A stretch of 64,000 nt of DNA from assembly GCF_021462225.1 (NCBI RefSeq), contig NC_061800.1, forward strand, positions 7,695,814 to 7,759,813, given 5' to 3'. The DNA comes from Girardinichthys multiradiatus. Lineage: Eukaryota > Chordata > Actinopteri > Cyprinodontiformes > Goodeidae. The translations under genes and the position numbers were made by a program. Under the pieces are notes generated by a model. That model did not search any database. It was not told the origin of the DNA and was given only the letters and a program-made list of their open reading frames with translations. Below are positions 4,359 to 59,439 of this stretch, piece by piece (within the stretch, counting starts at the first letter, position 1; every line of letters begins with the position of its first letter).

Positions 4359-4395
4359 ACATTATTTTAGTGGTTTTTATTCTTTTTTTCTTCTC

Positions 4396-21030: not shown

Positions 21031-21054
21031 ATCTCAAGCGCTCTCATCAATACG

Positions 21055-21589: not shown

Positions 21590-21632
21590 ATTAAATACGG
21601 GTATAAAATAAAAAAAGAAGTATAAATATACC
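21590..21632 (+). promoter_or_regulatory. TATA-like / poly(A)-like segment before integrase
   Basis: TATAAAATAAAAAAAGAAGTATAAATATACC could serve as poly(A) signal for the upstream gene and as TATA box for integrase. Inference only. Confidence 0.35.
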
Positions 21633-21693
21633 CTCAAGTGTTTGTTTTATTCATTATTTAACAAGTAGTCGTCAGAGTGAGCATAAAACTGGG

Positions 21694-22778: not shown

Positions 22779-22817
22779 AATAGGTGTGTACTAAAACCTA
22801 ATGATTCATACAGCATC

Positions 22818-23592: not shown

Positions 23593-23696
23593 ATTTTATT
23601 TGTATAAACAGAGATATATATAACCTCTAAGACTGATTGATTATCATTCATATTACCCTGGTCCTTCAACACTGCATCAAGCAGGCAAGAGAGAAC

Positions 23697-24320
23697 ATGG
23701 CACATCTAAGTCTGAGACGTGATCCAAATCGCTTTGTAAATTACTATGTAAGTCAATCAGGTGGTAATCTGCCAGGGTTTTATGGGGCCCCGGTCATGTA
23801 CGGATGCGGAATCGGATCATTATTTTCAAAATTATTCCGCTTCGTATCCCCTCTGGTTAAAAAAGGATTTGCTATTGCAAAACCCCATCTTAAAACGGCT
23901 GCATCAAATATCGCTTCAGATGTCATCGGTAGAGCCGTGAGTAAAATGAGTGGTTCTACACGCACCGAAGGTCAAGAAGGTTCAGGAATTATGGTTTTGT
24001 CCAAAAGACCCAGAACAAGACCCCCTGGTGATCGTTTAAGGACAGTTAAAAAACAACGACAAACGCAAAAAAGGAGATCAGTTGGAGCTGACAAACGAAG
24101 AGGAAAAAAGTCATCCGCATGTTTTGATATATTTAAAGAATGGCTCTTTTACATAACAAATCATCAGAGTGCACGCTGGCAGAGTTGGACTTATTTTCTG
24201 CCCCGATGGCGCAGCTATCGATTGAAGATAAAATTTACACCGAGATCCAGCCTTTATCAGCAATCACCGATGGAGGCCCGATCGAGTTTTTCATTCCGGG
24301 AGATGGAGAAAAGTATCTAG
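23697..24320 (+). CDS. Polinton pVI/pX-like basic membrane-active protein
   Basis: I chose ATG 23,697 (MAHLSL). The protein has a Gly-rich hydrophobic/amphipathic part (GCGIGSLFSKLFRFVSPLVKK), like adenovirus minor core or membrane-lytic proteins. It is followed by a very basic C-terminal region (KKQRQTQKRRS...KRRGKK) fit for DNA binding. A Gly-Gly in the N-terminal part (SQSGGNLPG) could be a cleavage site for the adenain-like protease. The open frame overruns the major capsid start at 24,140 by 180 nt in another frame, so its natural stop was probably lost. Confidence 0.6.
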   Translation: MAHLSLRRDPNRFVNYYVSQSGGNLPGFYGAPVMYGCGIGSLFSKLFRFVSPLVKKGFAIAKPHLKTAASNIASDVIGRAVSKMSGSTRTEGQEGSGIMVLSKRPRTRPPGDRLRTVKKQRQTQKRRSVGADKRRGKKSSACFDIFKEWLFYITNHQSARWQSWTYFLPRWRSYRLKIKFTPRSSLYQQSPMEARSSFSFREMEKSI

Positions 24321-25446
24321 ATCTCAACGATACGCTGTTGCATCTCAGAGTGAAAATTACTAACGAGAATGGAACAAACCTGCCAGATGATGCACCTGTA
24401 GGGCTCATCAACTACCCGTTAAACACCATCTTCAGTCAGTGTGACGTCACTCTCGGAGATTGATTGATTTCACAATCCAGCGCTACACATCCATACAGAG
24501 CCATGATTGAGACATTGTTAAACTTTTCTGAGGATTCTTTAAAAAGCCAGTTGAGCTCTGGTCTTTTTTATAAAGACACTGCAGGTGCTCTGAACTCTAT
24601 TGTTACAACTAACGGCCCTAACCAAGGTCTTAACAACAGAGCAGGCTTTACGGAAAATTCCAGGGAGGTACATCTCCTAGGCCCCCTGCATGCAGACATA
24701 TTTTTCTGTGAAAGACTTCTTTTAAACTCTGTTGACCTCAAAATTAAACTTACAAGAGCCAACGATGCCTTTTGTCTCATGGCCGCAAGAGACTCTACTT
24801 TCAAACTCAGGATATTAGGAGCATCTCTTTTTATCAAAAACGTTACTGTCTCTCCAGCTGTACGACTGGGGCACGCTTCAGCTTTAATGAAAGCAAATGC
24901 TCTGTATCCACTTTCACGTGTGAATGTAAAAACATATTCCATCCCTGAAAATTCAAGGGTATGCAACCAAGAGAATCTTTTCTTAGGCGTCTTTCCCAAG
25001 TATGTGGTGATTGCATTACTGGATCATGACGCTTTTACAGGAACACGCAATCTCAATCCGTTTGACTTTAATCATTTTGATATGGAATATTTAGCTTTGT
25101 GTAAGGATGGCAGACAAATTCCTGCTAAGCCTTCCAGCCCAATTTTAACCAAGGTAATTCAGTGAGAGAGTATTACAACTTGTTTACGGCTACAGGACGA
25201 CATCTAAAAGATCTTCCGCTGAGTATAACACGTCAGGAATTTAATCAAGGATACTCTCTATTCGTATTTAATCTTAACCCGGGTGAGGACACAGATGCTC
25301 TATCTCCAGTTTCCAGTGGGAATTTAAGACTGGAAATGCGTTTCAGAAACCCGTTGCCTCATACCACCATGCTGATCATCTACGCTTGTTATGACTCTAT
25401 TTTAGAGATTGATTCAAAGAGGCGTGTGCTGGTGGATTATTATTAA
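24140..25446 (+). pseudogene. MCP: Polinton major capsid protein (double jelly roll)
   Basis: The major capsid starts at ATG 24,140 and is about 435 codons long in three pieces. Recognisable blocks include GGPIEFFIPGDGEKYLDLNDTL near the N terminus and THPYRAMIETLLNF. An in-frame TGA at 24,461-24,463 and a frameshift near 25,160 interrupt it. The last piece (25,162-25,446) starts YYNLFTATG, contains ITRQEFNQGYSLFVFNL and reaches the normal C terminus. Only the two breaks keep it from being open, so decay is recent relative to its conserved body. Confidence 0.85.
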
Positions 25447-25457
25447 TCTAATCAGAC

Positions 25458-26000
25458 ATGAATAATCATAAAATTGAGAACATACTGCATCATCTGCTGG
25501 GAGATTTGTTTTGCGATGTGTGGCCATGCGACCAGCTCCCGCTGCTAGCTGACAAATTCCCAGGGCCGGCCTACTTTATTGTGAACACACATCCTTCACA
25601 CATGCCTGGAGAACACTGGTTAGCTCTGACTTTGGATGAGAATGGTCAATCCAGCTTTTTTGACTCTTATGGATTCTCTCCGGATTTCGAGTTCTACCCG
25701 TCAAGCATCGTAACATTTCTAGAAGACAGATCCTCAAAAATATTGTATCATAATAATCAGCTTCAAAACACTATGTCCACTGTGTGCGGTCACCATTGCA
25801 TTTTTTATCTATGTCATAGAGCGTGCGGATTATCACTGCAACAAGTGTTGTCAAAATACACCGGAGATGTGATTAAGAATGATTTAATGGTATCTAACTT
25901 TGTGAAAAAATATCAGAAATGTGTCATTAATCAAAGTTGTACGTTTTATACTCACGGAACATGCTCTTTGGAGATGTTTCTGGATTGTTATGGAATTTAA
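25458..26000 (+). CDS. PRO: Polinton adenain/Ulp1-like cysteine protease
   Basis: An intact 180-codon ORF that starts 11 nt after the capsid stop. It has the adenain-type catalytic set in order: His53 in GEHWLAL, Asp69 in FFDSYG, a Gln near residue 103, and Cys114 in CGHHC. The family cleaves capsid and core precursors at Gly-containing sites during virion maturation. Length is normal for the family. It is one of only two conserved enzyme genes in this copy that remain fully open. Confidence 0.92.
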   Translation: MNNHKIENILHHLLGDLFCDVWPCDQLPLLADKFPGPAYFIVNTHPSHMPGEHWLALTLDENGQSSFFDSYGFSPDFEFYPSSIVTFLEDRSSKILYHNNQLQNTMSTVCGHHCIFYLCHRACGLSLQQVLSKYTGDVIKNDLMVSNFVKKYQKCVINQSCTFYTHGTCSLEMFLDCYGI

Positions 26001-26114
26001 ATTGTCTTTTTTTTTTTTTTTTTTCCATTGTTTGTTTTTTCTTATGATATAATATTTGTGTAATGACATCATATGTTAGTGTGTGAAGTAGAGAACGAAG
26101 CTAGACTTGAAAAT

Positions 26115-26150
26115 ATAATCAATAAATATTTTATTGAATAAAATAAATAG
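26115..26150. terminator. Bidirectional poly(A) signals between convergent gene blocks
   Basis: AATAAA at 26,121-26,126 on the plus strand and at 26,130-26,135 on the minus strand lie between the protease end and the first leftward gene, the expected place for 3' ends of both transcripts. Confidence 0.6.
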
Positions 26151-26178
26151 GCTACATGTTTCATTTTCTTATAACGGT

Positions 26179-27006
26179 TTATGGTGAAAATGTAGTCCAT
26201 CGGGGTGGTAGTGTCGTCTTACGAAGAGACTTTTTTGACTTCCCATCAGCATTTTTTGGATCTTCCAGCTCGGATCTCGACCAATGGGGAGAATGAGTTA
26301 TCTGCCTTCTTCTTCTTGTTCTTCTCTGCTTAATGCTGGGTAGTGTACCCCCATTTTCAATAGATGTACCCCCTGTTTTGAACTGTCTATATTCTTCACG
26401 AGCATAAGGGTTAATGACTGAAGATATGGGTATGTTTACTTCTGACAAGGTATGTAGAAAGTTTGACCACCTTTGGGGTAGCCATGCTCCAGATTTTTTA
26501 AACGGAAGGATGAGATTTTTCAACAAGTCAATCATGTGGGACCCCTTTACAACATTCCCTTTATATACAAATTCACCTCGCGAAGTCCAACTCTCACTTC
26601 TTTCGGATAATTTCATCAAAATGTACTCAGCATTTTTACGGTTATGCTTCGGTAGGCTTTTCAGTACATCCGTAACAACCTGATCCTTAGGGGCCTCGTC
26701 CTGCCCTGGGCCTTGTTTTTCTTGGGACCGCTCATGTTCAGGAACCTCTGTGTCACGCTGCAGCGTTAAACTTACCCGCTGTTCTTCTTTCACACCTTGC
26801 TTGAGTAGAGTCAGATACCTCTGGAAAAGTGCATCATATTTCTTGATTTTTTCATAAGAAGTCAAAACCGGCTCGTTTAATATCGCTCTCATTTCAGCAT
26901 CCAAATTCTCCTCCGCCGTCTGTATGATGGACGTGTCTGACTGGGTCAGACGCTTGAATTGATGAGGGGAAATGAGAAACATCTTCTGCGATGTTCTGAG
27001 ATACAT
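26179..27006 (-). CDS. Polinton conserved protein of unknown function (PW-like)
   Basis: An intact 275-codon ORF. The N terminus (FLISPHQFKRL) is followed by a helical region with YEKIKKYDALFQRYLTLLKQ, a pattern seen in Polinton proteins between ATPase and the 3' junction. A Glu/Gln-rich linker follows, then a second conserved part (WTSRGEFVYKGNVVKGSHMIDLL). The C terminus is Arg/Lys-rich (KQRRTRRRRQ). It could be a virion-associated DNA-binding protein, but that is inference; the PW name is a guess from position. Confidence 0.6.
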   Translation of the reverse strand: MYLRTSQKMFLISPHQFKRLTQSDTSIIQTAEENLDAEMRAILNEPVLTSYEKIKKYDALFQRYLTLLKQGVKEEQRVSLTLQRDTEVPEHERSQEKQGPGQDEAPKDQVVTDVLKSLPKHNRKNAEYILMKLSERSESWTSRGEFVYKGNVVKGSHMIDLLKNLILPFKKSGAWLPQRWSNFLHTLSEVNIPISSVINPYAREEYRQFKTGGTSIENGGTLPSIKQRRTRRRRQITHSPHWSRSELEDPKNADGKSKKSLRKTTLPPRWTTFSP

Positions 27007-27347
27007 TATCTCCTGATTATACCACCCACTAGATCACCTATCAAGGGAGCAAGAGCCGTTAAGATGGGGAGAATAAAACCACCTCGTTGCCTTTTGAGAG
27101 CCAGCTGTTTAGTTTTTATTTCGGTTTTTTTATCACCCAACAATCTGATGATTTTTCTTTGCTTCTTCAATTTCCGGTGTTGAGATGGAGATAGTTTAAT
27201 GTTACCTTTTAGGATATTCAGAGCAATCTCGCACAGAGCCTGAAGAAAGTCGGGAGAGCAGTGTGCAAGAATATCTTTGCGCTTCTGCGGGGTGGCCTCA
27301 AACAAGGCTCTGAATAATGGTACATTCCTTTTTATACGTGCAGACAT
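27006..27347 (-). CDS. Polinton small basic protein with hydrophobic C terminus
   Basis: An intact 113-codon ORF whose end touches the start of the next leftward gene. The first part is helical (FRALFEATPQKRKDIL, then LCEIALNILKGNI) and the middle very basic. After an RQRGG site comes a hydrophobic, Gly-containing tail (FILPILTALAPLIGDLVGG). The Gly-Gly before the tail fits cleavage by the adenain-like protease to release a membrane-active peptide, as adenovirus pVI does; inference. Confidence 0.65.
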   Translation of the reverse strand: MSARIKRNVPLFRALFEATPQKRKDILAHCSPDFLQALCEIALNILKGNIKLSPSQHRKLKKQRKIIRLLGDKKTEIKTKQLALKRQRGGFILPILTALAPLIGDLVGGIIRR

Positions 27348-27353
27348 GATGAC

Positions 27354-28037
27354 TTACTTTGTTCTGGGCACATACACAGCAGGCCACTGGTGAGGAAGTA
27401 TGCCTGTTCTCAATCTGAAATGTTCTGGGCAGGTAGGCGTAAAATTGATGATTAAATATCCATGAGCTTCTCTCGTCGCATCTTCAAAACTCTCCAAGAA
27501 GAGACCCTTTTGAGATGGAAACATTTGACGGGCCAGTATATTCAGCTGCAGTTTATCTCTCGGGTTCTTAAACAACACCATATAATTACAGTTCAAACTA
27601 ATAGTGCGACTGAACTTTCCTTGATGAAAAACATTCTGAGTCAACATCATAACACTCATATTACGATGGTGACGAAACTGGGTAAAGACCTTCATCACGT
27701 TTTCATCATCTGAGGCTTGAGCAATAACATCGTCTAGAATAATCAGATGATTCTGATCAGGAGGAAACAGGTTTTCATCTTCAAAAGAATGAGGCAATCC
27801 TTCCACAAATTTTATATTTTTATTCATCTTCTGCAATTCAGCATACATCGGCTGAAAAGATGTGTAAATCCACACAATATTTTCTGGAACAACATCCATG
27901 ACATGGTTACAGTTCTGCAAAACACTTTTTACAAAAAAGGTTTTTCCACAACCACTGGGTCCTATTATCATACATGAGAAAGGCGCTCTAAATGTAGGAT
28001 ACAAATCAATCTCCTGTAAATTGGCTGATTGCAACAT
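27354..28037 (-). CDS. ATP: Polinton A32/FtsK-HerA-type packaging ATPase
   Basis: An intact 227-codon ORF for the genome-packaging ATPase. Walker A is GPSGCGKT (residues ~26-33) and Walker B is LIILDDV (Asp102/Asp103). A later VMMLTQN block fits the sensor region of A32-like ATPases. Normal length. It lies between the small basic protein and the polymerase, the common Polinton order, and has no disabling change that I can see. Confidence 0.93.
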   Translation of the reverse strand: MLQSANLQEIDLYPTFRAPFSCMIIGPSGCGKTFFVKSVLQNCNHVMDVVPENIVWIYTSFQPMYAELQKMNKNIKFVEGLPHSFEDENLFPPDQNHLIILDDVIAQASDDENVMKVFTQFRHHRNMSVMMLTQNVFHQGKFSRTISLNCNYMVLFKNPRDKLQLNILARQMFPSQKGLFLESFEDATREAHGYLIINFTPTCPEHFRLRTGILPHQWPAVYVPRTK

Positions 28038-28069
28038 TTTTATTTTATCTTTCTTCTTCTTCTTATGCT

Positions 28070-31000
28070 CTAATAACCGAAAGGCAGAGTTGTCCCGTCA
28101 GAAAAAAGGCATCTCTTGTCATACACCAACCGAAACCTTTTAACAAATGCAGCATTTCTTAAGAGGAATCTCTTTTTATCCCTCCTGATCGTGTGCTGAG
28201 GGATTTCAATGACACCCTCAGTTGACCCCTGTAAGTAGCCCTGGACCAGCCCTTTGATGCTGTCCAAATTGACCCTCTCGCTGCATTCATGCGTCTGAGT
28301 GATACCCTTAGCACGTATCACTAGCTTTTTCTGGTTTTTGGTTTGATATGCATAACTCTTGGGTCCTGTTGATGCAAACTCTGAAATGCTGTCTCCTGCG
28401 AGCTCGTCAGTAAGATCACCCAGATAATTCCCCAACTCCAGAGGAGTTTCACCACTTTTTGTCACATAAATCAAACTGTCCGTGTCAATATAAATCAATC
28501 TGTCCTGCAATTGCTCCATGCTGCTGAGAAGTTTTAAACGTGCATAAGCGGTGGTGAATGCTGCAATAAACACATTGTTTACCTTGCTTGGGGGGGAGAT
28601 GACACATTTGCTGTAGTTCCACTGCACTACACACATTTCAGGGTTGAAGAAATGGAAGTAGTTAACCCTGTATTTACTCGAGAACATGAAGCTGAAAAAC
28701 TCATCAGGGTTAGTGATGACTGTGGTCTGAGACAGATCACTTCGCTGCGCAAACTTTCCCCAAAAGCTGTTTAAGCACAGTTTTGCTACCTGTCTTTTGG
28801 CAGGGTTCACCTCGATTTTGCCTGCGTCTAATTGGATACCCTGGTGAAGTTTGTAGTCTGCGACATACTTTGACCTGCTCTCTTCATCCACCGCTTCAGA
28901 TGGGTAGCCTGAAGCCTCCTGCTTACCCGTTAAAAAGCAGTGAATGTAACCTTTAAAGATTGTGTCACCCCTGGGTCTGATCTTTTTCATTTCAGTCCAC
29001 TCATGCTCCCAGATAACCTCGAGACGAAGACCGTACACAGTTTGGAGCACCTTGCTTCTCTCAACAGTTGCTGCGTAAAACTGTTCAAATGCGACCCCTC
29101 TCAACGGACATTTGTCATGAGGCATGTAACACTTTTTACAGCCGTGGAAAAAACAGCCGTAAAATTCAAACGCAACTTTGACACCGTTAATCTCTGCATA
29201 CCCATCCACAGAATATGGACCAATTTTCCTTTCCCCCATGTTTAATGCATGTTCGATGTCAATTTTTCTGCTGTCTGAAATCCAGCCAAGCCATTGAATG
29301 GACGTGCTGGAAAACGTCTTACTACTATGCCTGTAGTCCAGAGGTGAGGGGATGGCCAAGGTTTTAGGAGGAAGGAAATTGGTTACAAAAACCTTCATGC
29401 AGGCTGAGGCTATCGTGACGCATTTAAGCGGATCCACACTTGTCTCCTTAAAGAACTCATCCCTGAATTTAACACAACCTTGATAAAGAATGTCCACATC
29501 ATATTTACAATAACGAAGAGCTTCCTTCTCAAAGTCAAAGACCCCTTTGCTCGCTTCTCTGTACCAGCTGCTAAACAGCTGTTGTTCTTGAAGGCTCATG
29601 CGTTCTACAGCGTAGGAGGATGGAGGAGGAAAAGACCCCACATACTGGAGATGTTGCTCAGACGAGAATAGGTGGGGGAAAAAACCTTTGGTCTTATCAC
29701 TAAAACCTAATGCTTTCGGCATCGCACTAAGCTTCATACACATGAAGGACAGACTATAAATGTATTTTAACCTGTAATCAGGGTCGGTTAAACAGAGAAC
29801 TTTACTTCCCTGCATGATGAGATGAGGTTTAATGCCTAACTGCAGCATAGCTGTGATAATCAGGTAGCTATCATACCCACGTGCGTTATGAGCTGTTAAG
29901 GTAAAGCCTCTGTACATCGGTCTCCTGAAATGGAGAAGTAATTTTTGGGTGCAATTCAATCCATAAGCATGCCATTCCTCACCTTTCAGCGTTTTAACAC
30001 AGACCAGATAGGGGATGTGCACACCGTTCTCGTCAATGAAGCATTCAAAATCATAAAAAACCAGTTTATCATCTAACTGATTACAGGCTTGGGCGGTTTG
30101 AATGTAACACAGATGATCATCGCACGTCACATCTAAATCAGGAGGTATATTCTCACCACAAATACGGCATTTTACATTACACACGTGTGGTTTATCCTGC
30201 CTGCTGATCGGAATAACATATATCCTTTTGCACACCTTGCACAGTTTTACCAACTCACAGTCACTAGTCAGCACTAGGTCTTTTGCGAGGTTCCCTGTGT
30301 CTACTGAAACAAGAAGAGTTACGACAGATTCTGTGACAACCTGCACAGGCGACAGGTTCGTTAATTTCACGCATACACTGGTATGAGTGACACACCGGGC
30401 AATAGCCTTCACAATGGTGTGTGTCTGGCTTTTCATAGCTCCCGTAACAATATGCACAGATGTATCTCAATCCTATAAAACCCTTGAGATTTTTTATCCC
30501 ATAGTAGTGACCTTGAAATAACAGCAGAAAGAGAGGGTTTGATCGATCAGGGAAACTGGTCTCAAATTTACACAGAGCTGCAGAGTCTGTAACGGTTCTG
30601 TGAAACACTACAATTTTTCTCTTTAGAATGTTTTCAAATTTACCAATGTCGCTGAAAGTTACTGCTGTCTGATCATCTAAACCAGCCCTGCGTTGCCACT
30701 CCCTCCCCAGCTCTAAAGCCTGATTATCAGTAAGGTTAGAGTCAGAGACGTGTGCAAGACTTATGGCAAAGCATAACTGATTACCGGTATTATCTACAAT
30801 ATACAGGTGACGCTTTTTCTTATTAATCAGTTCACAGTCTAACGTTCCTTTAACCTTACGTTTTGACCCTCCTGCAGGGTCATTAACTACCTGTAGAACA
30901 AATTCCAGGTTATTATCTGCAGGCATTTCAGCGTTGGACTGTACTAACTCATCCAGAAATTCCTCAAAAGCAGGCAGAATCATATTCCCATCATCGTTAA

Positions 31001-31745
31001 TGGTAAACGTGACGTTACGGTTCAGATTTTCCCCGACTAATTCTAGCTGCACAACATCGTTACATCTGGCTAAAGATCTTGCAGTATCGGCTAATTCAGT
31101 GAGAATATGCATGATGTTTATATAGATTGCAGGGAGATCAGGGACATTCCCAGGGCAGGGAGGCGGGATGGTAAAAGGTCTCCTTATTTCAATGTTATTA
31201 AAACGTTCACGTTCAACAGTCACAGGAGGATCTCCCTCAATCTGATCAGGGTTGACTGCAACCTCTGGATTGAAATTACCGCCATGCTGCCCAGTATGAT
31301 CAGCGGCGTGTGACGTTGAAGGAATTTGTAAGTCAGCTGATTCATTTTGCTGAATGCTGGATGGAGATGGTGTTCTATTTAAATCTTCAACAGTCGCAGG
31401 AGGATCTCCCTCAATCTGATCAGGGTTGACTGCAACCTCTGGATTGAAATTGCCGCCATGCTGCCCAGTATGATCAGCGGCGTGTGACGTTGAAGGAATT
31501 TGTAAGTCAGCTGATTCATTTTGCTGAATGCTGGATGGAGACGGTGTTCTATTTAAATCTTCAACAGCCTGTTCTAATAAGCTAAAAAAGTCACCGTACA
31601 GATTTTGATTTATTACATTTTCACTGTTAGCAGGAGATGCATTTAACCAGATGTTATCTGCTACATCAGCATTAACAGGAATTTCATTAAGATGAGCAAC
31701 AACATTCCTTATCTCATTCAGCGCATGTGTGATCTGGCTTTCCAT
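28070..31745 (-). pseudogene. POLB: Polinton protein-primed family-B DNA polymerase
   Basis: Two overlapping open stretches, 30,264-31,745 and 28,070-30,457, are joined by a frameshift near 30,290. The first holds a long low-complexity N terminus with a 58-residue tandem duplication, then a Cys/His-rich part. The second holds the 3'-5' exonuclease (FYDFEC; NARGYDSYL; YCKYDVDIL) and part of the polymerase palm: motif B AKLCLNSFWGK and motif C YIDTDSLIY (DTD at 28,478-28,486). Palm motif A (the D-x-x-S-L-Y-P type block) is absent: the sequence jumps from the EHEWTEMKK region to the GYIHCFLTGKQEASGYP region near 28,965-28,985. It cannot be catalytically active. Confidence 0.9.
31214..31561 (-). 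repeat. 174-bp tandem duplication in the polymerase N-terminal region
   Basis: Two nearly identical 174-bp (58-codon) units, 31,214-31,387 and 31,388-31,561, keep the reading frame. They code for a Ser/Pro/Gln/Asn-rich, probably disordered segment. Confidence 0.9.
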
Positions 31746-31794
31746 ATTAACATGAGTATCAGAAGAAGAAGACCCAGGGATCAGTTTAAATTAC

Positions 31795-42148: not shown

Positions 42149-42781
42149 TGTTATGATTCTGGCACGTCTGCTCTACCCTGTCTCCTTGGCTGCAATCAGC
42201 AGATTAGATGCACCTGGTGGCTGCTGCAGTGTAGTGCAATCTATGGCATGCCATACACCTGTGTCGGCCCTGATATATATTGACTCTGACAAGCAGACGG
42301 TGCCAGATTTTTGAAAGCCATCGTGTGAGTAGATATCCAGCGTTCCTTCCTGTCTGATCATTGTTCTTGACCTTGCCTTGCTTTTCGGATTTTTGCCTCT
42401 CTGCCTGCTCCCTGTCGGACTGTTTGGAATCTGGTTTTGACCCTGTTTCCTGCATCTGGTTTATGCCTCTGCCTGCCCCTTGCCTGACGCCTCTTGTTCC
42501 GATTGTTGACCCTGTTTCTGTCCTCGGATTATTGAGCCAGCCTAGCCCTTGGATTATTTAGCCTGGAGTCACTTCTTACCTGTGCTGTGGAGATCACTGC
42601 CTGCCGCCCACTGAGGTTTCCCCTCTGGGTTTCAAAGTTCTACTCAAGACGAAAGCAGTGATTCCTGGAAGCTGTGAGGAGTGTTACCTGTGTGATGTTT
42701 TCCTGTGGCTGAATAAACCTTTTAAACTTTCAGTACTGTGTCTGGCTGAATCTTGGGTCCACCTTTTTCTGATTCATAGCA
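42149..42781 (+). repeat. Gypsy 5' LTR
   Basis: Starts TGTTATGATTCTGG and ends near TTCATAGCA. It shares long blocks with the solo LTR at 52,312 (TTTTTGAAAGCCAT, GAGTAGATATCCAGC), so the family has more than one copy in this window. Confidence 0.8.
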
Positions 42782-42856
42782 GAAACATCTGGCCAAAAAA
42801 TTGACCCATCGCCAGCACAGCAGAGGCGCACCCACATTGATGAGACCATTTTCCGG

Positions 42857-43760
42857 TTGAGATCCAGCATGGAGGAAATATTTTCCACATTACGTTCTGG
42901 CAATCTTGTCTCCGAGCCGCCACCGTCACAAAGGGAGCCACGCCTATCTCCGCCTGAGATGTTCAGGGGAGACCCAGACCAGTGTCGAGCTTTTCTAACT
43001 CAGTGTGAAATTCATTTTGAGCTTCAGCCGTCATCCTTTCCCACTGAACGTACTAAGGTGGCTTTTGTTATATCTCTGCTAGCAGGAAAGGCAAAACAGT
43101 GGGGGACTGCTGAATGGCAAAACAGGTCTACATCTTGTAACTTCTATGAAACTTTTTCTAAGGAACTCATTCGAGTTTTTGACCCTATTATTCCAAGTCG
43201 TGAGGCCGCAAGAGGATTACTGTCCCTCAAACAGGGTGATCAGCCTGTCTCGTCCTATATAATTGACTTTCATTTGTTGGCTGGAGAGAGCCGTTGGAAT
43301 GAGGCAGCACAGATGGATGCATTTATGCAAGGACTAAACGCAGACATCAAGGATGAGTTAGCGACCCGTGACTACCCCTCTTCCTTGAAACAACTCGAGG
43401 ACCTGGCTGCTCGCATTGACATTCGGCTGGCAGAGAGAGGGAGGGGGAAGCGACATGACGAGGGTCGCTCCTCATTAACTCAGGGTCCTGCACTCTGGCA
43501 TGAGAGAAGGAGTCGGTCACCTCTCACTGAGGAAAATGAGAATTGTGAGCCCATGCAGTTGGGCAGAACCAAGATTACCCCTGAAGAGAAGGATCATCGG
43601 ATAAGATTCAAGCTGTTTTTATTGTGGAGAGAAGGGACATTTAGCACTCAGGTGTCCATTAAAAAGGACAGGCTCAGCAGAGGAAGGGAGTTTTCTACTG
43701 AGCCAAAGTCAGCTAACTGCCTCCTCCTTCTGGTTTCCTGCTCATTTTCGAACCTCTTCC
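42857..43760 (+). pseudogene. gag: Gypsy gag
   Basis: Open from ATG 42,857 for about 250 codons with the capsid-like retrotransposon Gag fold typical of fish Gypsy and the PEG10/RTL family (FRGDPDQCRAFLTQCEIHF, FVISLLAGKAKQW, GDQPVSSYIIDF). A CCHC zinc knuckle (C-x2-C-x4-H-x4-C) is encoded at 43,614-43,655 but in the +1 frame, so a frameshift just upstream (about 43,600) separates capsid from nucleocapsid. Confidence 0.82.
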
Positions 43761-44210
43761 ATGTCTCTCCAGGGGGCCGTGTTTATTGATTCAGGAGCAG
43801 ACACTGAATTCATGGATGAAGCATTCGCCAATAAGAACAACATAAAGCTCATTCCATCAGCTGACACATGTAAAGTGCTAGCATTGGATGGTCACAGCAT
43901 GAACAATTCACACCTCAGGACAGAGGAAATTACCTTAACAGTTGCAGGTAATCATCAAGAGAATGTAACCTTCATGATCATAAATTCACCTGAACTTCCT
44001 GTTGTCCTAGGGGCCTCCTGGTTGCAGAAACACAACCCTCACATTGACTGGAAAAAGAAAGAAAATCTGGGTTGGTCTGAGTCATGCTCCACTGCCGGCC
44101 TTTTGTCTGCTGCTATGGAGGTCAGCGTGGAGAATGAGGTCAAGGAGACATACCCGGATTTATCCAAGGTACCTCAAGAAGACCATGATCTAAAAGAAGT
44201 ATTTAATAAG
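43761..44210 (+). CDS. pro: Gypsy aspartic protease segment
   Basis: Retropepsin-like domain with active site DSGA at 43,788-43,799 and a second-flap [19 protein letters not shown] block near its end. The open frame runs without a stop from the protease through the protease-RT linker ([12 protein letters not shown]) straight into the myosin-derived segment and ends at TAA 44,442-44,444. It would make a protease-myosin fusion of 227 codons from the first ATG. Confidence 0.8.
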
Positions 44211-44627
44211 ATTAAGACCAAGAACGCTCTGGCTCATGCTGTTCAGTCGGCTCATCATGACTGTGATCTGCTCAGAGAGCAGTATGAGGAGGAGCAGGAG
44301 GCCAAACCTGAGCTGCAGCGTGCTATGTCCAAGGCTAACAGTGAGGAGGCTCAGTGGAGAACTAAGTATGAAGAGAGTCAAGCCGAGCTGGAAGGAGCTC
44401 AGAAGGAGGCACGTGCTTTGAACACAGAGATGTTCAAAATGTAAAAACTCCTATGAAGAAGCTCTGGACCACCTGGAGACCCTGAAGAGGGAGAACAAGA
44501 ACCTGCAACAGGAAATAAGTGATTTGACTGAGTATATTAGTGAAACAGGAAAGACAATTCATGAACTGGAGAAGAGTAAGAAAACTGCAGAGAATGAGGT
44601 CAGGAGCAGGAACGATGCCCTAAGGTG
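44211..44627 (+). pseudogene. MYH-like: Captured sarcomeric myosin heavy chain tail fragment
   Basis: Coiled-coil rod sequence of class II (sarcomeric) myosin: [47 protein letters not shown], then [12 protein letters not shown], and after a 1-nt insertion at about 44,443 the [20 protein letters not shown] and [11 protein letters not shown] blocks, ending in RSRNDALR. Three separate rod regions are joined, and no introns are present, so the source was mRNA. The first junction lies at a KYE shared by two rod sites. It sits in frame after the protease and before the integrase C terminus, which shows capture rather than a host gene. Confidence 0.88.
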
Positions 44628-44918
44628 CCAAAGAATATGGAGAAAGGCCAGGAGGTCGATGATCAGAATGTCACTGATTCAGTCAAGAACGGCCAACCGG
44701 AGACGGACCCCTGTCCCTAAGTACCAGGTGGGGCAGAAAGTTTGGCTCTCCGCCAAGGACCTACCATTAAGGGTAGAATCCCGGAAGTTGTCACCCCAAT
44801 TTGTTGGACCTTTCCCAATTTCCAAGATCTTCAACCCTGTCGCTGTACGGCTGAGATTACCCAAATCTATGAGGATTCACCCCACGTTCCATGTTTCTCA
44901 GGTCAAGCCCTTCGTGGA
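44628..44918 (+). pseudogene. pol (IN C-term): Gypsy integrase C-terminal region
   Basis: Only the SH3/GPY-like end of integrase remains: an Arg-rich lead-in ([12 protein letters not shown]), [25 protein letters not shown] and [14 protein letters not shown]. The catalytic DDE core is absent. The open frame 44,524-44,961 joins the last myosin segment directly to this domain. The end is cut by a SINE. Confidence 0.85.
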
Positions 44919-44919
44919 G

Positions 44920-45262
44920 CCCCGACACTGTTGCCTTGCAGCCACAAGGTCCTGGGTTTGACTCCCAGCCGGGGGTCTTTCTGCATGGAGTTTGCATGTT
45001 CTTCCCATGCATGCATGGGTTCTCTCCGGGTACTCCGGCTTCCTCCCACAGTCCAAAGACATGCATGTTAGGTTAATTGGTCTCTCTAAATTGCCCTTAG
45101 GTGTGTGAATGAGTGTCTGCATGGTTGTTAGTGTGTTGCCCTGCGATGGACAGGCGACCTGTCCAGGTTGTACCCCGCCTCATAGACTGCTGGAGATAGG
45201 CACCAGCTTCCCCGTGACCCACTATGGAATAAGCGGTATAGAAGATGACTGACTGATAGAAG
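44920..45262 (+). repeat. tRNA-derived SINE
   Basis: A tRNA-like head with B-box GGGTTTGACTCCC is followed by the body (GCATGGAGTTTGCATGTTC, TTCCTCCCACAGTCC, ATTGGTCTCTCTAAATTG) and an end block with CTGCGATGGACAGGCGACC. It truncates the Gypsy integrase. Confidence 0.75.
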
Positions 45263-49519: not shown

Positions 49520-51128
49520 CAGGTCCTTCTCAAAATATTAGCATATTGTGATAAAGTTCATTATTTTCCATAATGTCATGATGAAAATTTAACATTCATA
49601 TATTTTAGATTCATTGCACACTAAATGAAATATTTCAGGTCTTTTATTGTCTTAATACGGATGATTGTGGCATACAGCTCATGAAAACCCAAAATTCCTA
49701 TCTCACACAATTAGCATATCATTAAAAGGGTCTCTAAACGAGCTATGAACCTAATCATCTGAATCAACGAGTTAACTCTAAACACCTGCAAAAGATTCCT
49801 GAGGCCTTTAAAACTCCCAGCCTGGTTCATCACTCAAAACCCCAATCATGGGTAAGACTGCCGACCTGACTGCTGTCCAGAAGGCCACTATTGACACCCT
49901 CAAGCAAGAGGGTAAGACACAGAAAGAAATTTCTGAACGAATAGGCTGTTCCCAGAGTGCTGTATCAAGGCACCTCAGTGGGAAGTCTGTGGGAAGGAAA
50001 AAGTGTGGCAGAAAACGCTGCACAATGAGAAGAGGTGACCGGACCCTGAGGAAGATTGTGGAGAAGGGCCTATTCCAGATCTTGGGGGACCTGCGGAAGC
50101 AGTGGACTGAGTCTGGAGTAGAAACATCCAGAGCCACCGTGCACAGGCGTGTGCAGGAAATGGGCTACAGGTGCTGCATTCCCCAGGTCACGCCACTTTT
50201 GAACCAAAAACAGCAGCAGAACGCCTGACCTGGGCTACAGAGAAGCAGCACTGGACTGTTGCTCAGTGGTCCAAAGTACTTTTTTCGGATGAAAGCAAAT
50301 TCTGCATGTCATTCGGAAATCAATGTGCCAGAGTCTGGAGGAAGACTGGGGAGAAGGAAATGCCAAAATGCCAGAAGTCCAGTGTCAAGTACCCACAGTC
50401 AGTGATGGTCTGGGGTGCCGTGTCAGCTGCTGGTGTTGGTCCACTGTGTTTTATCAAGGGCAGGGTCAATGCAGCTAGCTATCAGGTTATTTTGGAGCAC
50501 TTCATGCTTCCATCTGCTGAAAAGCTTTATGGAGATGAAGATTTCATTTTTCAGCACGACCTGGCACCTGCTCACAGTGCCAAAACCACTGGTAAATGGT
50601 TTACTGACCATGGTATCACTGTGCTCAATTGGCCTGCCAACTCTCCTGACCTGAACCCCATAGAGAATCTGTGGGATATTGTGAAGAGAACGTTAAGAGA
50701 CTCAAGAACCAACACTCTGGATGAGCTAAAGGCCGTTATCGAAGCATCCTGGGCCTCCATAAGACCTCAGCAGTGCCACAGGCTGATTGCCTCCATGCCA
50801 CGCCGCATTGAAGCAGTCATTTCTGCCAAAGGATTCCCGACCAAGTATTGAGTGCATAACTGTACATGATTATTTGAAGGTTGACGTTTTTTGTATTAAA
50901 AACACTTTTCTTTTATTGGTCGGATGAAATATGCTAATTTTGTGAGATAGGAATTTTGGGTTTTCATGAGCTGTATGCCAAAATCATCCGTATTAAGACA
51001 ATAAAAGACCTGAAATATTTCAGTTAGTGTGCAATGAATCTAAAATATATGAATGTTAAATTTTCATCATGACATTATGAAAAATAATGAACTTTATCAC
51101 AATATGCTAATATTTTGAGAAGGACCTG
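49520..51128 (+). mobile_element. Tc1-like transposon copy 1, full length
   Basis: A 1,609-bp element with perfect TA duplication (49,518 and 51,129), ends CAGGTCCTTCTC/GAGAAGGACCTG and TIRs of about 200 bp (49,520-49,727 and 50,928-51,128). It lies in ERV-C. Confidence 0.95.
49848..50851 (+). pseudogene. Tc1-like transposase, copy 1
   Basis: DD34E transposase. The N-terminal paired helix-turn-helix DNA-binding region starts MGKTADLTAVQKATID and includes GCSQSAVSRHLSG and a second HTH (ETSRATVHRRVQEMGY). The catalytic residues are D in FSDESKF, D in FQHDLAPAHSA and E in NSPDLNPIENLW. A 1-nt deletion near 50,215-50,222 puts the two halves in different frames (49,848-50,228 and 50,171-50,851), so it is inactive. 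Confidence 0.92.
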
Positions 51129-53035: not shown

Positions 53036-53900
53036 ACTCAGATTATATTATACCAGTAGATGAAGTTGTTAGTATCTCATCTAGACTGACATATACTGTT
53101 GCTTTTGGAGAGGATCTCAGATTAAATAAATTTAGAGCTTCAATCCAGGTACATTTTGTATCTGCAGACTTTAGCCAATTTTTCTTTTTGTATACATAAA
53201 GAGCAAGATTCAAAACATTTTCAAAAGGCAGATTGTGGCAGAATGTAGACAAAACCGCTTTATTGACAAAATAGCATTCAAGCACACAATCGCCATATCA
53301 AAGGCTCTACTTTTAGAGAATCACATAACCTTCTGGGGGCTGGTTTTGGCCCGCGGACCTTGAGTTTGACACCTGCAGGGTAGAGTTACAATCTTCATCA
53401 TAGCTTTCAGCAGAGGTAGGCTTCTGCTCTTCTGCTGGGTGCAGAAATTTTATCTTTGTTTTCAGGCAGCTGCATTTCCTTTGTCAAGGTCGTTTCACAG
53501 AGCTGAAATTGAACTTTTCTCAAAGAGGAAATAACTCAAAAATGCACACAATCTGAGTCAAATATGGAATTTTACATTTTAATAGTTCCTAATCAATAAC
53601 TTTTAACTATTATCTTTAGCTAATGTCTTTTCTGGTTTAACAACTTATCTCATTTATTTACATAAAATTTGTATGTGCATCCACCAGCAAACAGAATTTC
53701 TCACCGGACCCTCAATCCCAATTGGAAAACAGGCTTCTAGAAGAAAAATAGTTTTCATCCGGTTTTCCGCTTAGGGTTCTAATCCCGAAGGTAAAAGAGG
53801 TTTTAGACTGCTACTGGTAAAGTGCCTAAAAATACAAATCAGAATTCCCTACAGCACAGGTTTAGTGGTGTTGGGACCCACAGCCATGGATACAACAATG
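53036..53900. other. Mostly unassigned DNA with a hAT-like end
   Basis: At 53,330-53,390 the words GGCCCGCGGACCTTGAGTTTGACACCTG resemble the end of a hAT-type element. A minus-strand open frame at 53,043-53,285 has no recognisable domain. Confidence 0.4.
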
Positions 53901-54871
53901 GCTGCTTCAATGCGGCGTGGCATGGAGGCAATCAGCCTGTGGCACTGCTGAGGTCTTATGGAGGCCCAGGATGCTTCAATAACGGCCTTTAGCTCATCCA
54001 GAGTGTTGGTTCTTGAGTCTCTTAACGTTCTCTTCACAATATCCCACAGATTCTCTATGGGGTTCAGGTCAGGAGAGTTGGCAGGCCAATTGAGCACAGT
54101 GATACCATGGTCGGTAAACCATTTACCAGTGGTTTTGGCACTGTGAGCAGGTGCCAGGTCGTGCTGAAAAATGAAATCTTCATCTCCATAAAGCTTTTCA
54201 GCAGATGGAAGCATGAAGTGCTCCAAAATCTCCTGATAGCTAGCTGCATTGACCCTGCCCTTGATAAAACACAGTGGACCAACACCAGCAGCTGACACGG
54301 CACCCCAGACCATCACTGACTGTGGGTACTTGACACTGGACTTCTGGCATTTTGGCATTTCCTTCTCCCCAGTCTTCCTCCAGACTCTGGCACCTTGATT
54401 TCCAAATGACATGCAGAATTTGCTTTCATCCGAAAAAAGTACTTTGGACCACTGAGCAACAGTCCAGTTCTGCTTCTCTGTAGCCCAGGTCAGGCGCTTC
54501 TGCCGCTGTTTATGGTTCAAAAGTGGCTTGACCTGGGGAATGCGGCACCTGTAGCCCATTTCCTGCACACGCCTGTGCACTGTGGCTCTGGATGTTTCTA
54601 CTCCAGACTCAGTCCACTGCTTCCGCAGGTCCCCCAAGGTCTAGAATAGGCCCTTCTCCACAATCTTCCTCAGGGTCCGGTCACCTCTTCTCGTTGTGCA
54701 GCGTTTTCTGCCACACTTTTTCCTTCCCACATACTTCCCACTGAGGTGTCTTGATACAGCACTCTGGGAACAGCCTATTCGTTCAGAAATTTCTTTCTGT
54801 GTCTTACCCTCTTGCTTGAGGGTGTCAATAGTGGCCTTCTGGACAGCAGTCAGGTCGGCAGTCTTACCCAT
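53849..54871 (-). pseudogene. Tc1-like transposase, copy 2
   Basis: Same DD34E protein as copy 1, with HTH region, FSDES, FQHDLAPAHSA and DLNPIENLW all present. One in-frame TAG at 54,641-54,643 separates the DNA-binding part (54,641-54,871) from the catalytic part (53,849-54,637). The last residues after RRIEAA come from flanking DNA. It lacks the frameshift of copy 1, so the two copies decayed independently. Confidence 0.92.
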
Positions 54872-55204: not shown

Positions 55205-56349
55205 TTAGTTTGTCTTACCCAGTTTTATAAACACACTGTACAGTTTCAGTCATCTATAGTTCTTCCCATTTTAATTACACTTTGTATTTATTTCAAGTAA
55301 CTATAGTTTATTTGAATTAACTCAAGTTTTCTCAATTTCAGGAATAGTAATTCTGTCCAGTAATTTTGTTAAAGAGCATTTCATCTTGTGTTAAATTTTA
55401 AATCTAATTTGATCATTTTGAACCTGTCTGGAAAAAGTCCAAACATCTGTGAAAATCCTTTTTGTTGAGGTTTAACTAGAGGAGTACCCAAGTTCAGGCA
55501 TAAACAGAACAATGACACAGAGACAAGATGAAAAGTTAAATGATGTTTATTTACAGAGAATGCAAAACAGTGGGTTTGTCTTGCAAAGGAATAGGAAGAA
55601 GTTAGCTGGTCATCCACAGGAGTAATGGTGAGTATAATGAGGAGATTGCCTCTTTGTTTCTTACAGGCTCTTGGGAGGGAGGTCAGCTCGGAGGAGGAGG
55701 CAAGGGAAATCCAGGAGGTAAGTGTTCCAGGACCGAGAGAGAGAGAGAGAGAGAGAGATAAGTGTCCTTAGAAAAACACAAAAATCACCAAGAAGGTCTC
55801 AAAGATAAATTATTGGCTGTCTCATTCAGTACCAGTGTCATTGAATAATCCGGCGAGGAATGGATCACTTCCAGGAGCTTAAATGCCAGCTGCTCTCATC
55901 AGCAGAATCCAGGACAGGTGTGTAGATTGGGAAACTCCGCCCCTGCTACTCTAACTCTGAAAGGTAAGTAAACACAAACAGATCCACCAAAGAGAACACA
56001 ATCCTAACACTTTTGTTTCACCATAAAAATTGACCTAATAATTATGGTACTGCTGAACATCAGACTTGCATTTATAGGCTTTAATTATTATCATGCACAT
56101 ATACCCTAATTTTTACATAACATAAAACAAACATTTCACAAAAACAAACAGACAAAATTTACAGACATTGGCCACACAAAAAATTGAATTACTCTGTTTG
56201 TAAAAGAATTTTGTAAATTGAAGACAGGTCTATGAGCTTTCTTATGTTCATCAGTATTTCAATTCAGGTAGAACCTTTACTATCTTTAGATGATTTTTGA
56301 AAAAAAAAAATTCTGGAAACCTTATAGAGGTAAAAGTTTGGCAATGTTT
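55205..56349. repeat. Repeat segment R, copy 2, split by a solo LTR
   Basis: Matches 51,196-51,775 on both sides of the inserted LTR and runs up to the end of the ERV-B env frame. Confidence 0.7.
55466..56009. mobile_element. Solo LTR in segment R
   Basis: About 544 bp starting TGAGGTTTAACTAG and ending ATCCTAACA, flanked by CTTTTTGT/CTTTTGT. It is absent from the other copy of R, which gives the empty site. A (GA)n run lies at 55,737-55,758. Confidence 0.75.
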
Positions 56350-57714
56350 ATAAGAAGTTCTGGAACTCCACGTGGAATACCTATTGTATCAATATAAGTT
56401 AATGAGCTGTCCATAAGATCAAAGGATCTGGTCTTCCTCACCATTCCTCCATGTGGTGATTTCTCCCCCCACAGCAGTAAGGGAGCCACTAGCTGCACCA
56501 TTGCACAGCTTCCTACTGCCCTAGGGGCAATTTGGGCTAATAAAACACTTCCACCACAATAGTAATATAAACCTTCTCGGGCCCAGTGTCCTACAGTGCC
56601 AGCTGTTTTGTTGCACCATGATGGAGAGACAGTTCCCAATTTTAACTGTGGTTCTTCAGTAACCCCTGTAAAATTGAAACAGAGATAATCATATCCCTCA
56701 CTCTGAGGAGAAAAAGGGCCTACCAGTGAGCTATTACTAATAACCAGAAAAACCTTTGCTAAGGTATGACATGCAGGGTTTTCTTTACCATGAGTTAACA
56801 GAATCCTGCATTTAAATCCTAGTGGATCCGCGTTCTCATATATGGGGGCAGGTACAGTGACTAGAGTGGGTCTAGCAGCTGCACATGCTATACAATTGCT
56901 CATGGCCAACTCACGTGCTGTCTGAGCCATTTACAGAGTCCACAAATCCCAGAGCCCCTTGGATAACATTTTCCGGGGTTAAGGTGTTATAGTCTATCTG
57001 AACCACAGGGGTTTTCACTTTACCACCCTTGGCCATAACAGAAACAAGATTAATTCTAACAATTCTACCCTGATCTCATGCGAGCCATCCTGGCAAATCT
57101 ACTCCTAAATACATATAAAATCCAGAACTCATATTTCCACATCTAAGAGTAGGATACCTTATTGTAATATTATGGTTGTGGTAGGGGTTGCTCTGTATTC
57201 TTCCAATGCTGAGTAATATTAGATTAATACCTCCAATTGTCAATTTACCCTTCGCTTGTCCTCTAGTCAAGGTCACCAAATGCTGAAATGTTTCTGCATA
57301 TGGATTATCTCACAGTATTTGTCCCTGTTTAGTGTCCCAAATGATAAAACCCTGGGCCGGCATGCCATCCACTGCACCTTTCTGATAGATACTCAGATAC
57401 ACATTATATTTAGTCCAGGCTAACTCACTACCCTCACATGTAAACACAGAACAGAGATCAAACTGAAACGTGGTGTCTGAGCCAAGTACATGATCTAATT
57501 CAATACCTCCATGTCTTTTAATGCACGTGTCCGATAATTCAGTCATTTTCCGGAGTAGATGACGACGGCTGCGGAAATTGGGACTGGAAGTGTGCTCACC
57601 ACTCTGGAAAACATCACATATCAAGAATACAATTATTCCTACAAGTGTCATTATTAAACCTCCCCCACATTTCCATTTACAACTAACTTCCCAACCATGC
57701 ATCACCATTTTCAT
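56322..57714 (-). pseudogene. env: ERV-B envelope remnant
   Basis: Three open pieces: 57,310-57,714, 57,076-57,279 and 56,322-56,930. The first has a hydrophobic leader/anchor (GLIMTLVGIIVFLICDVF) and an Arg-rich RSRRHLLRK. The last is Cys-rich surface-like sequence with glycosylation sites (NFT, NKT) and a conserved fish ERV block (YIDTIGIPRGVP). The frame then leaves env at the segment R border. The transmembrane subunit is missing. Gamma/epsilon-like by its pol; env class uncertain. Confidence 0.7.
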
Positions 57715-58056
57715 TCTTTATATCAGATCAATCCCACTTAGCCCAGGAGCTTATAACCTTCACACACTGTGGGATTTACTCAGAAATGTTGATTCAACGT
57801 CATACATCAAGTACATAAAACAACAATAGCATATAACCAATGCTCCAAAGATTAATTGACAGAATTCAATGATCACATAATCCGAATCAAGAGTCACATA
57901 TGTTCCACTTTCCAATCCTGAATTTATCTGTTGATTAGTTGAATATAATGACTCCTTGTAGTGGATAAATACTCTTGAAAACCAAAAGAAAAAGTCTCTG
58001 GAGTGGATAAATCTTCTTCAGCTCAGTGCGATCACACCGGTGAGCCTCCAGGGGAT

Positions 58057-59348
58057 TTATTGTGCCCCTTTATGACACCTCTGGTGCCTGTGACTTTGTA
58101 GGCTCCTCAGCTGGTGCACACTGGCTCCAATGATACCAGGTTTCTCCTTTCCTCTCAGACGAACCACATGAGATGTTCTTTCCAGGACTTGGAACGGGCC
58201 TGTGAACCTGGGTTCCTGCCACCTCCGCTTGATGACTTTGAGCCACACCCAGGTGACTCCTGGTATCACAGGGGGCCTCTTGTTCTCTCAGGTCCTCTGG
58301 AGAATTCTGCCGCTAGGGTCTGCAACTCATTAAAGAAAGTGTTAGAAGATAATTGTGCCGATTCAGCTGTTTGTCCTGGCATCCGCTGTGCTGGTCCCAG
58401 GAAGATTCTCCCAGTCTGTAGTTCATGTGGGGTGTAACCTGTGGACTGATTAACAGACATCCTGACAGACATTAAAGCAACTGGCAAATCATCCACCCAA
58501 TTTAATTTGGTCTGTGCACAGATTTTAGCCAATTTTGTTTTCAATGTTTGGTTCATTCTTTCAACTTTGCCCTGTGACTGAGGATGATAAACTGTACCCA
58601 AAGCATGTTTCAGTCCCAACATTTGCTCCTTCTGTTGCAGATCTTTGCTCCTGAAACGAGTTCCATTATCTGATCTTATCTTTTCCGGGAAGCCATGTCT
58701 GGGAATGTAATGATTAATTAAAAATTTTACCACATACTTACTGTCTTCCTTTCTTGTGAGCCATGCCTCAGGCCATCCTGAATATCCATCCACACAGACC
58801 AACCTGTATCTATATCCTCTTGCTGTGGATACCATGTCTGTGTAGTCAATGATGATCTCCTTCCCAGGTTGGGGGGTGTAGTTTTTAAACTTACCTGGAA
58901 ATGGATGCACAGTAGGTTTTAGATTAAATTGTCTGCAAATAGAACAGTTCCTGATCTTCTCTCTCACCATATCTTTTAAATATGGGTCCCACCATTGTTC
59001 TGGATTGAAAGGCACCTGCAAAATACTTACATGTGATGTTCCATGTGCCTCTTCCGAAATCTGTTCTCTCATGTTTGGTGGCTTCACAACTTTTATCACC
59101 AGGGCCTTTTCTCTTCCACACAGTAAATTCCTCAAGGGGAGAACCCATTTTTGTGATGTTGTTTGATTTTTTTCCAAGTTTAGATGTTCAAAGTTCTCAG
59201 CTTCAACACTTACTAAATTGAAGCTGCGTGTATAACCTGCTACTTTTTTAGGCAACAACAAGGCTCGAGCCATGAATCTCATTTCATTTTCATGTTTGAT
59301 TGGCTTCTGTGATGCAGTCACAAATCTACTTTTCAACCATTGTTTCAT
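58057..59348 (-). pseudogene. pol (IN): ERV-B integrase
   Basis: A 360-codon stretch (58,266-59,348) plus a C-terminal stretch (58,057-58,269) in another frame. The zinc site (H-x3-H, CSICRQ), the DDE triad ([27 protein letters not shown]) and the SH3-like end (RWQEPRFTGPFQVL) are all present. The core is open; a shift at about 58,266 splits the end. Close relative of ERV-A integrase, which lacks the end. Confidence 0.88.
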
Positions 59349-59439
59349 ATCAACATGTCTTTTTCCATATTATCTAGCACACAGCTAACATACTGAATCA
59401 CCTCTATATCCCCCTTTTTCTACAACAACATTGTTGTTA

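Follow-up and report, generated by a model that had tools for sequence, protein, structure and literature searches.

The window analysed here, 64,000 nucleotides of contig NC_061800.1 of the goodeid fish Girardinichthys multiradiatus, contains a Ty3/Gypsy element which, with a probability of a little over nine in ten, captured a spliced sarcomeric myosin mRNA by template switching and was later amplified, deleted and recombined. An earlier note, made from the sequence alone, had proposed such a capture with loss of the region from reverse transcriptase (RT) to the integrase core. Four lines of evidence supported this proposal: the absence of five introns of the best donor gene, the existence of an RT-bearing parental-type copy, the homologies at both joints and the recurrence of these joints at 56 and 48 places.

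Organization of the window element and nature of its insert

The features of the window copy are as follows (window positions; strand in brackets):

42149..42781 (+): 5' LTR, 633 bp (TGTTATGA...ATAGCA); LTR pairs are present in other copies
42782..43600 (+): gag; Pfam Retrotrans_gag at ~43064-43339, E 4e-12
43605..44190 (+): CCHC knuckle and aspartic protease, from Pfam and ORF comparison
44205..44221 (+): joint 1, Gypsy to myosin; parent and myosin share AT(C/T)AAGGCCA
44211..44625 (+): cDNA of a sarcomeric myosin heavy chain rod, captured and since deleted internally, from a PDB match and comparison with the donor gene
44364..44372 (+): scar of deletion 1, a 9-nt repeat; by arithmetic the loss is 255 nt (85 codons)
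44509..44510 (+): second myosin exon-exon boundary in the window; donor intron L036:2980-3091 absent
44594..44599 (+): scar of deletion 2, with a 4-nt repeat; by arithmetic the loss is 204 nt (68 codons)
44616..44625 (+): joint 2, where myosin passes into Gypsy integrase; TGCCCT(A/G)AGG is common to parent and myosin
44731..44913 (+): integrase C-terminal SH3-like domain, SH3_Tf2-1; Pfam E 1.7e-18
44914..44926 (+): last element sequence, at a 3' breakpoint hot spot, before a C-rich run (minus-strand G-rich) seen in copies L022 and L023

The start of the 5' LTR at 42149 was common to 17 of the 21 aligned copies, and their 5' flanks differed. Judging from its DNA context, gag lacked an ATG at the expected start. 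The frame was broken twice in the window copy, once inside the myosin part and once between gag and protease; gag and protease thus occupied different frames there, but a single one in copy L011 according to the ORF comparison. Among the protease models of Pfam, RVP_2 scored above its cut-off in the window and the others below theirs, the CCHC knuckle falling just under its own. Neither RT nor integrase core was detected by Pfam in the window frames, and the 3' end beyond ~44926, with chromodomain and 3' LTR, was missing. The order gag, protease, integrase SH3 and chromodomain, established with Pfam on the window, L011 and L022, is that of the chromodomain lineage of Ty3/Gypsy elements, and we take the parental element to be sushi/Tf1-like. 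A comparison of flanks among the fetched copies placed the 3' break of the window copy ~25 bases inside a repeat, presumably a SINE-like one, and yielded no empty site.

The earlier note had placed a sarcomeric myosin rod between a Gypsy protease and an integrase C terminus on the same strand, and both PDB and Pfam agreed. The translated window piece matched human MYH7 and MYH4 in the PDB (E 2.1e-27 for Myosin-7). Pfam Myosin_tail_1 stayed under its cut-off in the window frames and was well above it (107 bits) in the less-deleted copy L026. The latter matched residues 1318-1539 of Myosin-7 with an E value of 7e-97, whereas smooth and non-muscle myosin II gave values of about 1e-17 to 1e-20; the captured piece is thus sarcomeric myosin rather than just any coiled coil. 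MYH proteins thus ranked above other coiled coils, as the note would have it, and this gap in L026 ruled out any other coiled-coil origin. Likewise, the borders given earlier were correct to a few bases, the first myosin-matching base being 44211 and the right joint lying within 44616-44625; both joints were in frame, as claimed, and the one frameshift fell inside the myosin part.

Other features were recorded along the window. A block at 19554-31790, which we take to be Polinton/Maverick- or adintovirus-like, displayed DNA_pol_B_2 (28070-30466), an A32-like ATPase (27354-28097), an adenovirus-type protease (25452-26000) and an rve integrase core below cut-off (21607-22128). Two retrovirus-like remnants lay on the minus strand, one at 334-6076 with RT and RNase H at 1886-3535, the other at 56322-59369 with an integrase core at 58266-59369 and no Pfam match in frame 56322-56930. 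A tRNA-Pro-like match occurred at 7082-7165. Two very similar DDE transposase frames, presumably of Tc1/mariner type, were found in opposite orientation at 50111-50851 (+), where Pfam recognized DDE_3, and at 53849-54640 (-), assigned by its similarity to the first.

Donor gene, parental element and joints

The myosin genes of the genome were located with a myosin protein probe, and 14 stretches were compared. The best donor was an intron-containing gene on contig C19 at 24.94 Mb (L036), with summed scores of 1160 bits against L026 and 903 against L021, followed by its C19 neighbours L038 (900 and 421) and L037 (826 and 539). Exon by exon, L026 and L021 were 95-100% identical to L036, with two exceptions, a block of 56 bp at an end of L026 (85.7%) and the last exon of L021 (93%); the C19 neighbours reached 94-99% on one or two exons and 74-89% on the others. 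On the first exon, L038 equalled L036 (95.6 versus 95.2% for L026, 98.6% each for L021). Given this tie, and since the C24 cluster and three further C6 genes lay outside the comparison, the donor could be L036 or a relative or allele of it. All 26 copies with a myosin part were 95.7-97.6% identical to the spliced donor (a reference of 870 nt) over 323-670 nt each, L044 and L045 being devoid of myosin.

Three further candidates were rejected as donors: the C25 myosin cluster (its matching genes reaching 79-90% per exon), a single gene each from C6 and C20 (70-86%) and an intronless myosin frame on C15 (69-71% DNA identity). The last one (L042, C15:2325600-2327500) is of sarcomeric type, open over 1952 codons and 73% identical to the protein probe; it is an intronless or retroposed myosin gene, and not the donor here.

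As the earlier note had stated, the captured myosin is without introns. Five introns of L036, all GT...AG (2174-2272, 2470-2551, 2736-2813, 2980-3091 and 3217-3293), were gone from the element, each of the five exon boundaries being crossed by at least one copy: the window retained two (44216/44217 and 44509/44510), copies L025-L028 of class B (see below) four, and the fifth was crossed by L021.

The parental element emerged from a sample of seven gag-bearing places (~1.1 kb each) outside the 40 scored for myosin (see below). Five turned out to be further myosin copies, L044 left the element before joint 1, and L045, on contig C14, was of parental type, its protease continuing into an RT (RVT_1, E 1e-36). 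With up to 3 mismatches allowed, the parental sequence spanning joint 1 turned up at 328 places and that spanning joint 2 at 354, against 0 for the controls. By arithmetic, the two joint positions were 3421-3453 bp apart in three listed parents and ~2.2 kb apart in other listed ones (e.g. C1:3475588 and C1:8245850), the shorter spacing suggesting another pol-deleted form. If the longer form is ancestral, these three spacings indicate that myosin would have replaced ~3.4 kb of pol. Of the Gypsy order (protease before RT, integrase last), separate copies each showed a part: RT came after protease in L045, and an integrase-core match lay upstream of the SH3 end in L048/L052 (rve, E 6e-6, below cut-off). 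The AAGATT combination of the chimera was absent from all 100 parental matches listed, so the evidence points to a parental type and not to one exact parental copy. This parental-type element (L045/L051) also ended early, with a partial LTR.

At joint 1, which spans the myosin exon-exon boundary 44216/44217, the parental sequence is AAAATCAAGGCCACAGC (or AAGATC...), that of the myosin mRNA GAAATTAAG^GCCAAGAAC (^ marking the exon boundary) and that of the chimera AAGATTAAGGCCAAGAAC. At joint 2, the readings are GCTGCCCTAAGGTGCC for the parent, GATGCCCTGAGGATC for myosin and GATGCCCTAAGGTGCC for the chimera. Homology amounted to 7 exact bases at joint 1 and 6 at joint 2, each with a few more around one mismatch. 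The sequences support the view that both joints are as expected from two template switches at short homologies during RNA copying, their shortness leaving room for a component of chance. One base of joint 1 was diagnostic: T in the chimera and in myosin, it was C in 97 and T in 3 of the 100 parental matches listed (of 328). Since C prevailed among these parents, the T of the chimera probably derived from the myosin exon upstream of the boundary, of which a few bases would have been kept; the three parental matches with T prevent it from being proof of that exon. The bases ATTAAG as plain proof of the upstream exon were weakened by L045, which reads ATCAAG at this place.

Taken as a capture by template switching, these data suggest the following course. 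A chromodomain-bearing Ty3/Gypsy element would have packaged spliced sarcomeric myosin mRNA alongside its own RNA. During minus-strand synthesis, RT may have left the Gypsy RNA for the myosin mRNA at TGCCCT(R)AGG in the integrase gene, copied ~870 nt (~290 codons) of myosin, and returned to the Gypsy RNA at AT(Y)AAGGCCA, a little beyond the protease, the myosin strand of this homology spanning the exon-exon boundary. The product would be without ~3.4 kb of pol (RT, RNase H and integrase core) and keeps LTRs, gag, protease and integrase C terminus. Having lost these functions, it would need the enzymes of the parent family. Today it occupies 62 places, or 59 should contigs C24 and C25 be homologous (see below), and internal deletions and mosaics gave rise to sub-families afterwards.

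Two other routes to an intronless insert were considered. A processed myosin pseudogene made by a LINE inside a Gypsy copy, with DNA deletions then removing pol and the pseudogene ends, would also yield intronless myosin within a Gypsy element. Yet both insert ends were internal to the myosin coding sequence, so neither 3' UTR nor poly(A) is present, and both fell on homology with the parent. Moreover, a 211-nt probe from the stretch that most copies lack matched only L021, L043 and places of known myosin genes, with all 9 candidates scored; it thus revealed no independent processed copy of this stretch, and the sole intronless myosin frame seen, the one on C15, is too distant (69-71% DNA identity). 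This route is therefore extremely unlikely.

A Gypsy insertion into a myosin gene, the DNA fusion preceding the RNA step, is very unlikely too. The production of read-through RNA, spliced and then packaged, is the classical first step of oncogene capture and the textbook route for transducing retroviruses, and joint 1 lay only 4-6 nt from the myosin exon start. However, the parental joint 1 contained no GT splice donor, its homology crosses the exon boundary, and within the 3.9 kb fetched from the donor gene nothing matched the LTR, gag-protease, integrase end or chromodomain.

Amplification and subsequent evolution of the chimera

With 44211-44627 as a DNA query, 63 matches were obtained, spread over 40 scored places of 88 candidates. 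Among these 40, class A comprised 17 places, including the window, where the match was continuous without the 255-nt gap, and class B 23 places where the halves lay apart or only the right half was present (both halves in 22 of the 23). Twenty of the other places were taken at 9.9 kb each (16 of class A, 4 of class B), making 21 with the window. Contiguous alignments with the window crossed joint 1 in 19 of these 20 (L024 being the exception) and joint 2 in another 19 (all but L022), and left no space for pol. L025 displayed an insertion of ~1.6 kb upstream of joint 1.

Pattern searches over the whole genome (up to 3 mismatches; reversed-pattern controls 0 for each joint) uncovered joint 1 at 56 places, 43 of them exact, and joint 2 at 48, 31 of them exact. 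Both joints occurred at 42 places and at least one at 62. The joints that the earlier note proposed to look for elsewhere in the genome are thus found many times over, which rules out an assembly or read chimera; different flanks and private mutations in the fetched copies argue the same way, and the probability left to such an artefact is negligible. That note had dealt with the copy in the window. The captured muscle fragment is real, but it belongs to an amplified family formed by a mechanism already described in metazoan LTR retrotransposons, so the case is less unprecedented than was implied.

Three joint-1 pairs occupied matching positions on contigs C24 and C25. Since these contigs look like homologues, 59 places is a safer figure than 62. 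The two contigs also shared a myosin cluster and element insertions at matching positions, with offsets of ~1.07 Mb for the cluster and a tandem pair and 0.71 Mb for another insertion, and are probably homologous chromosomes (haplotypes or a sex-chromosome pair). The tandem pair, at C24:29425631-29430050 (its end being L050) with its C25 match, consisted of two chimera copies in the same orientation, 2.26 kb apart, and a partial LTR followed the second copy of the C24 pair.

Evidence of movement came from the element ends. LTR pairs, often partial, were recorded in 6 of the 21 copies (five by self-comparison, plus L021), and the outer end of the 3' LTR was retained in 7 of the 21. Exact 5-bp target duplications flanked five of the six copies with both ends readable, L022 matching at 4 of 5 positions. 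L022 and L023 kept the full 3' end, the latter being without a 5' LTR, and in L022 a chromodomain preceded the LTR (Chromo, E 1.2e-10). The divergence of LTR pairs (K2P) was 0.016-0.039 in five copies, which corresponds to about 1-10 million years at assumed substitution rates of 2-7e-9 per site and year. Because RT and integrase core are missing, apart from the L048 type, this spread implies help in trans: judging from the missing genes, the chimera probably owes its mobility to enzymes of the parent, which shares gag-protease and would be their obvious source.

Deletion 1 was typical of class A, and deletion 2 occurred in both classes. For the second lost stretch, only L021 and L043 matched among element copies (9 of 9 candidates scored). 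L021 displayed class A states at sites 153, 426 and 456; being without deletion 2, it indicates that this deletion recurred or that copies recombined. The presence of deletion 2 in both sub-families and its absence from L021 and L043 likewise calls for recombination or recurrence. In L025, class B states at sites 7, 36, 97, 153 and 155, together with the stretch missing in class A, were combined with A at sites 426 and 456, a state found in 16 and 17 of the 17 class A copies, respectively, and in none of the 8 other class B copies. L025 is a mosaic of the two sub-families, generated by recombination. L048/L052 shared joint 1 with the other chimeras and returned to Gypsy in the integrase core; there, as at a second place (C2:25.11 Mb), parental integrase sequence followed ~1.0 kb after joint 1, and these forms suggest recombination as well. 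Trees of three element parts were star-like and mostly weakly supported. In the gag-protease tree, L021 paired with L015 (0.985) in the vicinity of class B copies, in agreement with mosaicism.

The 3' truncations were unexpectedly clustered. Eighteen of the 21 copies ended within the same 12 positions (5412-5423 in L022), as did L050 and L043; L009 broke earlier, and L022 and L023 were intact at this place. The other border varied, lying inside the 3' LTR (L016, L018, L019, L021, L028 and L050) or in other DNA, and in the latter case no 3' LTR was found within the 10 kb read. Scored with G4Hunter, the L022 element had its lowest window (-1.48, minus-strand G-rich) starting at 5421, just past the break. 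Against a role of this run, an equally strong plus-strand one at ~3975-4016, with scores up to 1.52, displayed no break cluster, though L024 and L043 broke beside it. In worms, according to the part of PMC7202663 consulted, deletions at G-quadruplexes have at least one breakpoint very near the impediment. From their position, the truncations may have arisen where second-strand synthesis, or DNA replication at a later time, stalled at the G-rich run.

Coding capacity, related systems and significance

A single open frame of 601-719 codons, running from gag into the myosin part, was present in 5 of the 21 copies, a sixth copy, L018, having one of 567 codons; the longest, in L011, contained gag, protease, myosin tail and SH3 according to Pfam. 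Replacement:silent changes were counted over copies that differ in coverage, with an assumed transition weight and independently of any tree. For the myosin part against the donor, they amounted to 15:6 shared changes, in line with the neutral ratio of 2.64 (p = 1.0), and 108:26 private ones, slightly above it (p = 0.04). Against L011, shared changes leaned to the silent side (11:7, private 78:19; p = 0.12). Constraint was seen in gag-protease (71:56 shared versus 241:90 private, Fisher p = 7e-4). On the replacement:silent ratios of the insert, clear selection was thus rejected, and since the amino acids of the myosin part are under no clear constraint, it is probably a passenger.

An alternative holds that selection kept the coiled coil for use by the element, e.g. 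in Gag-protease multimerisation or transport. The reading frame was indeed kept at both joints and through both later deletions, and open gag-to-myosin frames persisted in the copies just mentioned. Myosin rods are built of 28-residue repeats plus skip residues, and the 85 codons of deletion 1 equal three such repeats and one skip residue, so that the register would hold; the silent-leaning shared changes against L011 point the same way, at a non-significant level. Against this stand the neutral-like shared changes and the above-neutral private ones relative to the donor, a proline at one site of the coil in 12 of 26 copies, and the 68 codons of deletion 2, which break the register. Selection for the coil is accordingly very unlikely. 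It is equally unlikely that the coil of a Gag-protease-myosin-rod protein was exploited during the spread, by multimerisation or by transport along host myosin/actin; were it so, the chimera would be a retrotransposon that had exchanged its polymerase for a muscle protein domain and domesticated the latter.

Considered as a passenger-carrying element, the chimera resembles several known systems. Acute transducing retroviruses are defective, carry host cDNA instead of pol or env and are helped in trans. The chimera is likewise defective, with host cDNA in place of pol, but it is a germ-line retrotransposon, no env was noticed in the pieces read, and the captured piece shows no sign of selection. 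Those non-autonomous LTR elements which retain gag have gag/protease but neither RT nor integrase core and are moved by a relative. The same genes were kept and lost here, yet the missing pol was replaced by a host gene fragment.

The closest relationship is with LTR-mediated retroposition, the occurrence of which in metazoans was reportedly described by Tan et al. in 2016 (Genome Res 26:1663). As far as the consulted parts of the sources go, it works through switches of template at microsimilarities and is described from animals, zebrafish among them (PMC5408686), retrocopies of this kind were reported from zebrafish, chicken, mosquito and Drosophila (PMC5408686, PMC8277862), and one retrocopy family, CG17604_r, was amplified further in Drosophila (PMC8277862). 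Since the mechanism is already described there, the chimera was placed under it: a spliced host mRNA was probably copied into an LTR element at microsimilarities, five introns are absent, homology occurs at both switch points, and LTRs and target duplications are present. Compared with what passages citing that work convey, the present case unites, in a vertebrate, the donor, a parental-type element, both joints, sub-families and ~60 places; again as far as those passages go, it further distinguishes itself by a host piece that is in frame with gag-protease and replaces pol. Bs1 of maize, as portrayed in the consulted part of PMC5408686, is an LTR element with transduced pieces of host genes and a hybrid ORF. 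It shares both traits with the chimera, but Bs1 belongs to a plant and took up three host genes, whereas the chimera belongs to an animal and carries a single muscle gene.

Among the matches listed from the open-licence literature, no paper on a myosin-carrying retrotransposon was found. The mechanism, LTR-mediated retroposition, is known; what is new is this myosin case, which is unusually complete for a vertebrate. Since donor, parental element, switch points, less-deleted forms and a mosaic all survive, the copying route can be read almost stepwise within one vertebrate genome, down to a switch point lying across an exon-exon boundary. Annotation pipelines may be expected to label copies of the chimera as myosin genes or pseudogenes. 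An element without RT and integrase core, carrying a piece of a muscle gene, can still reach dozens of places.
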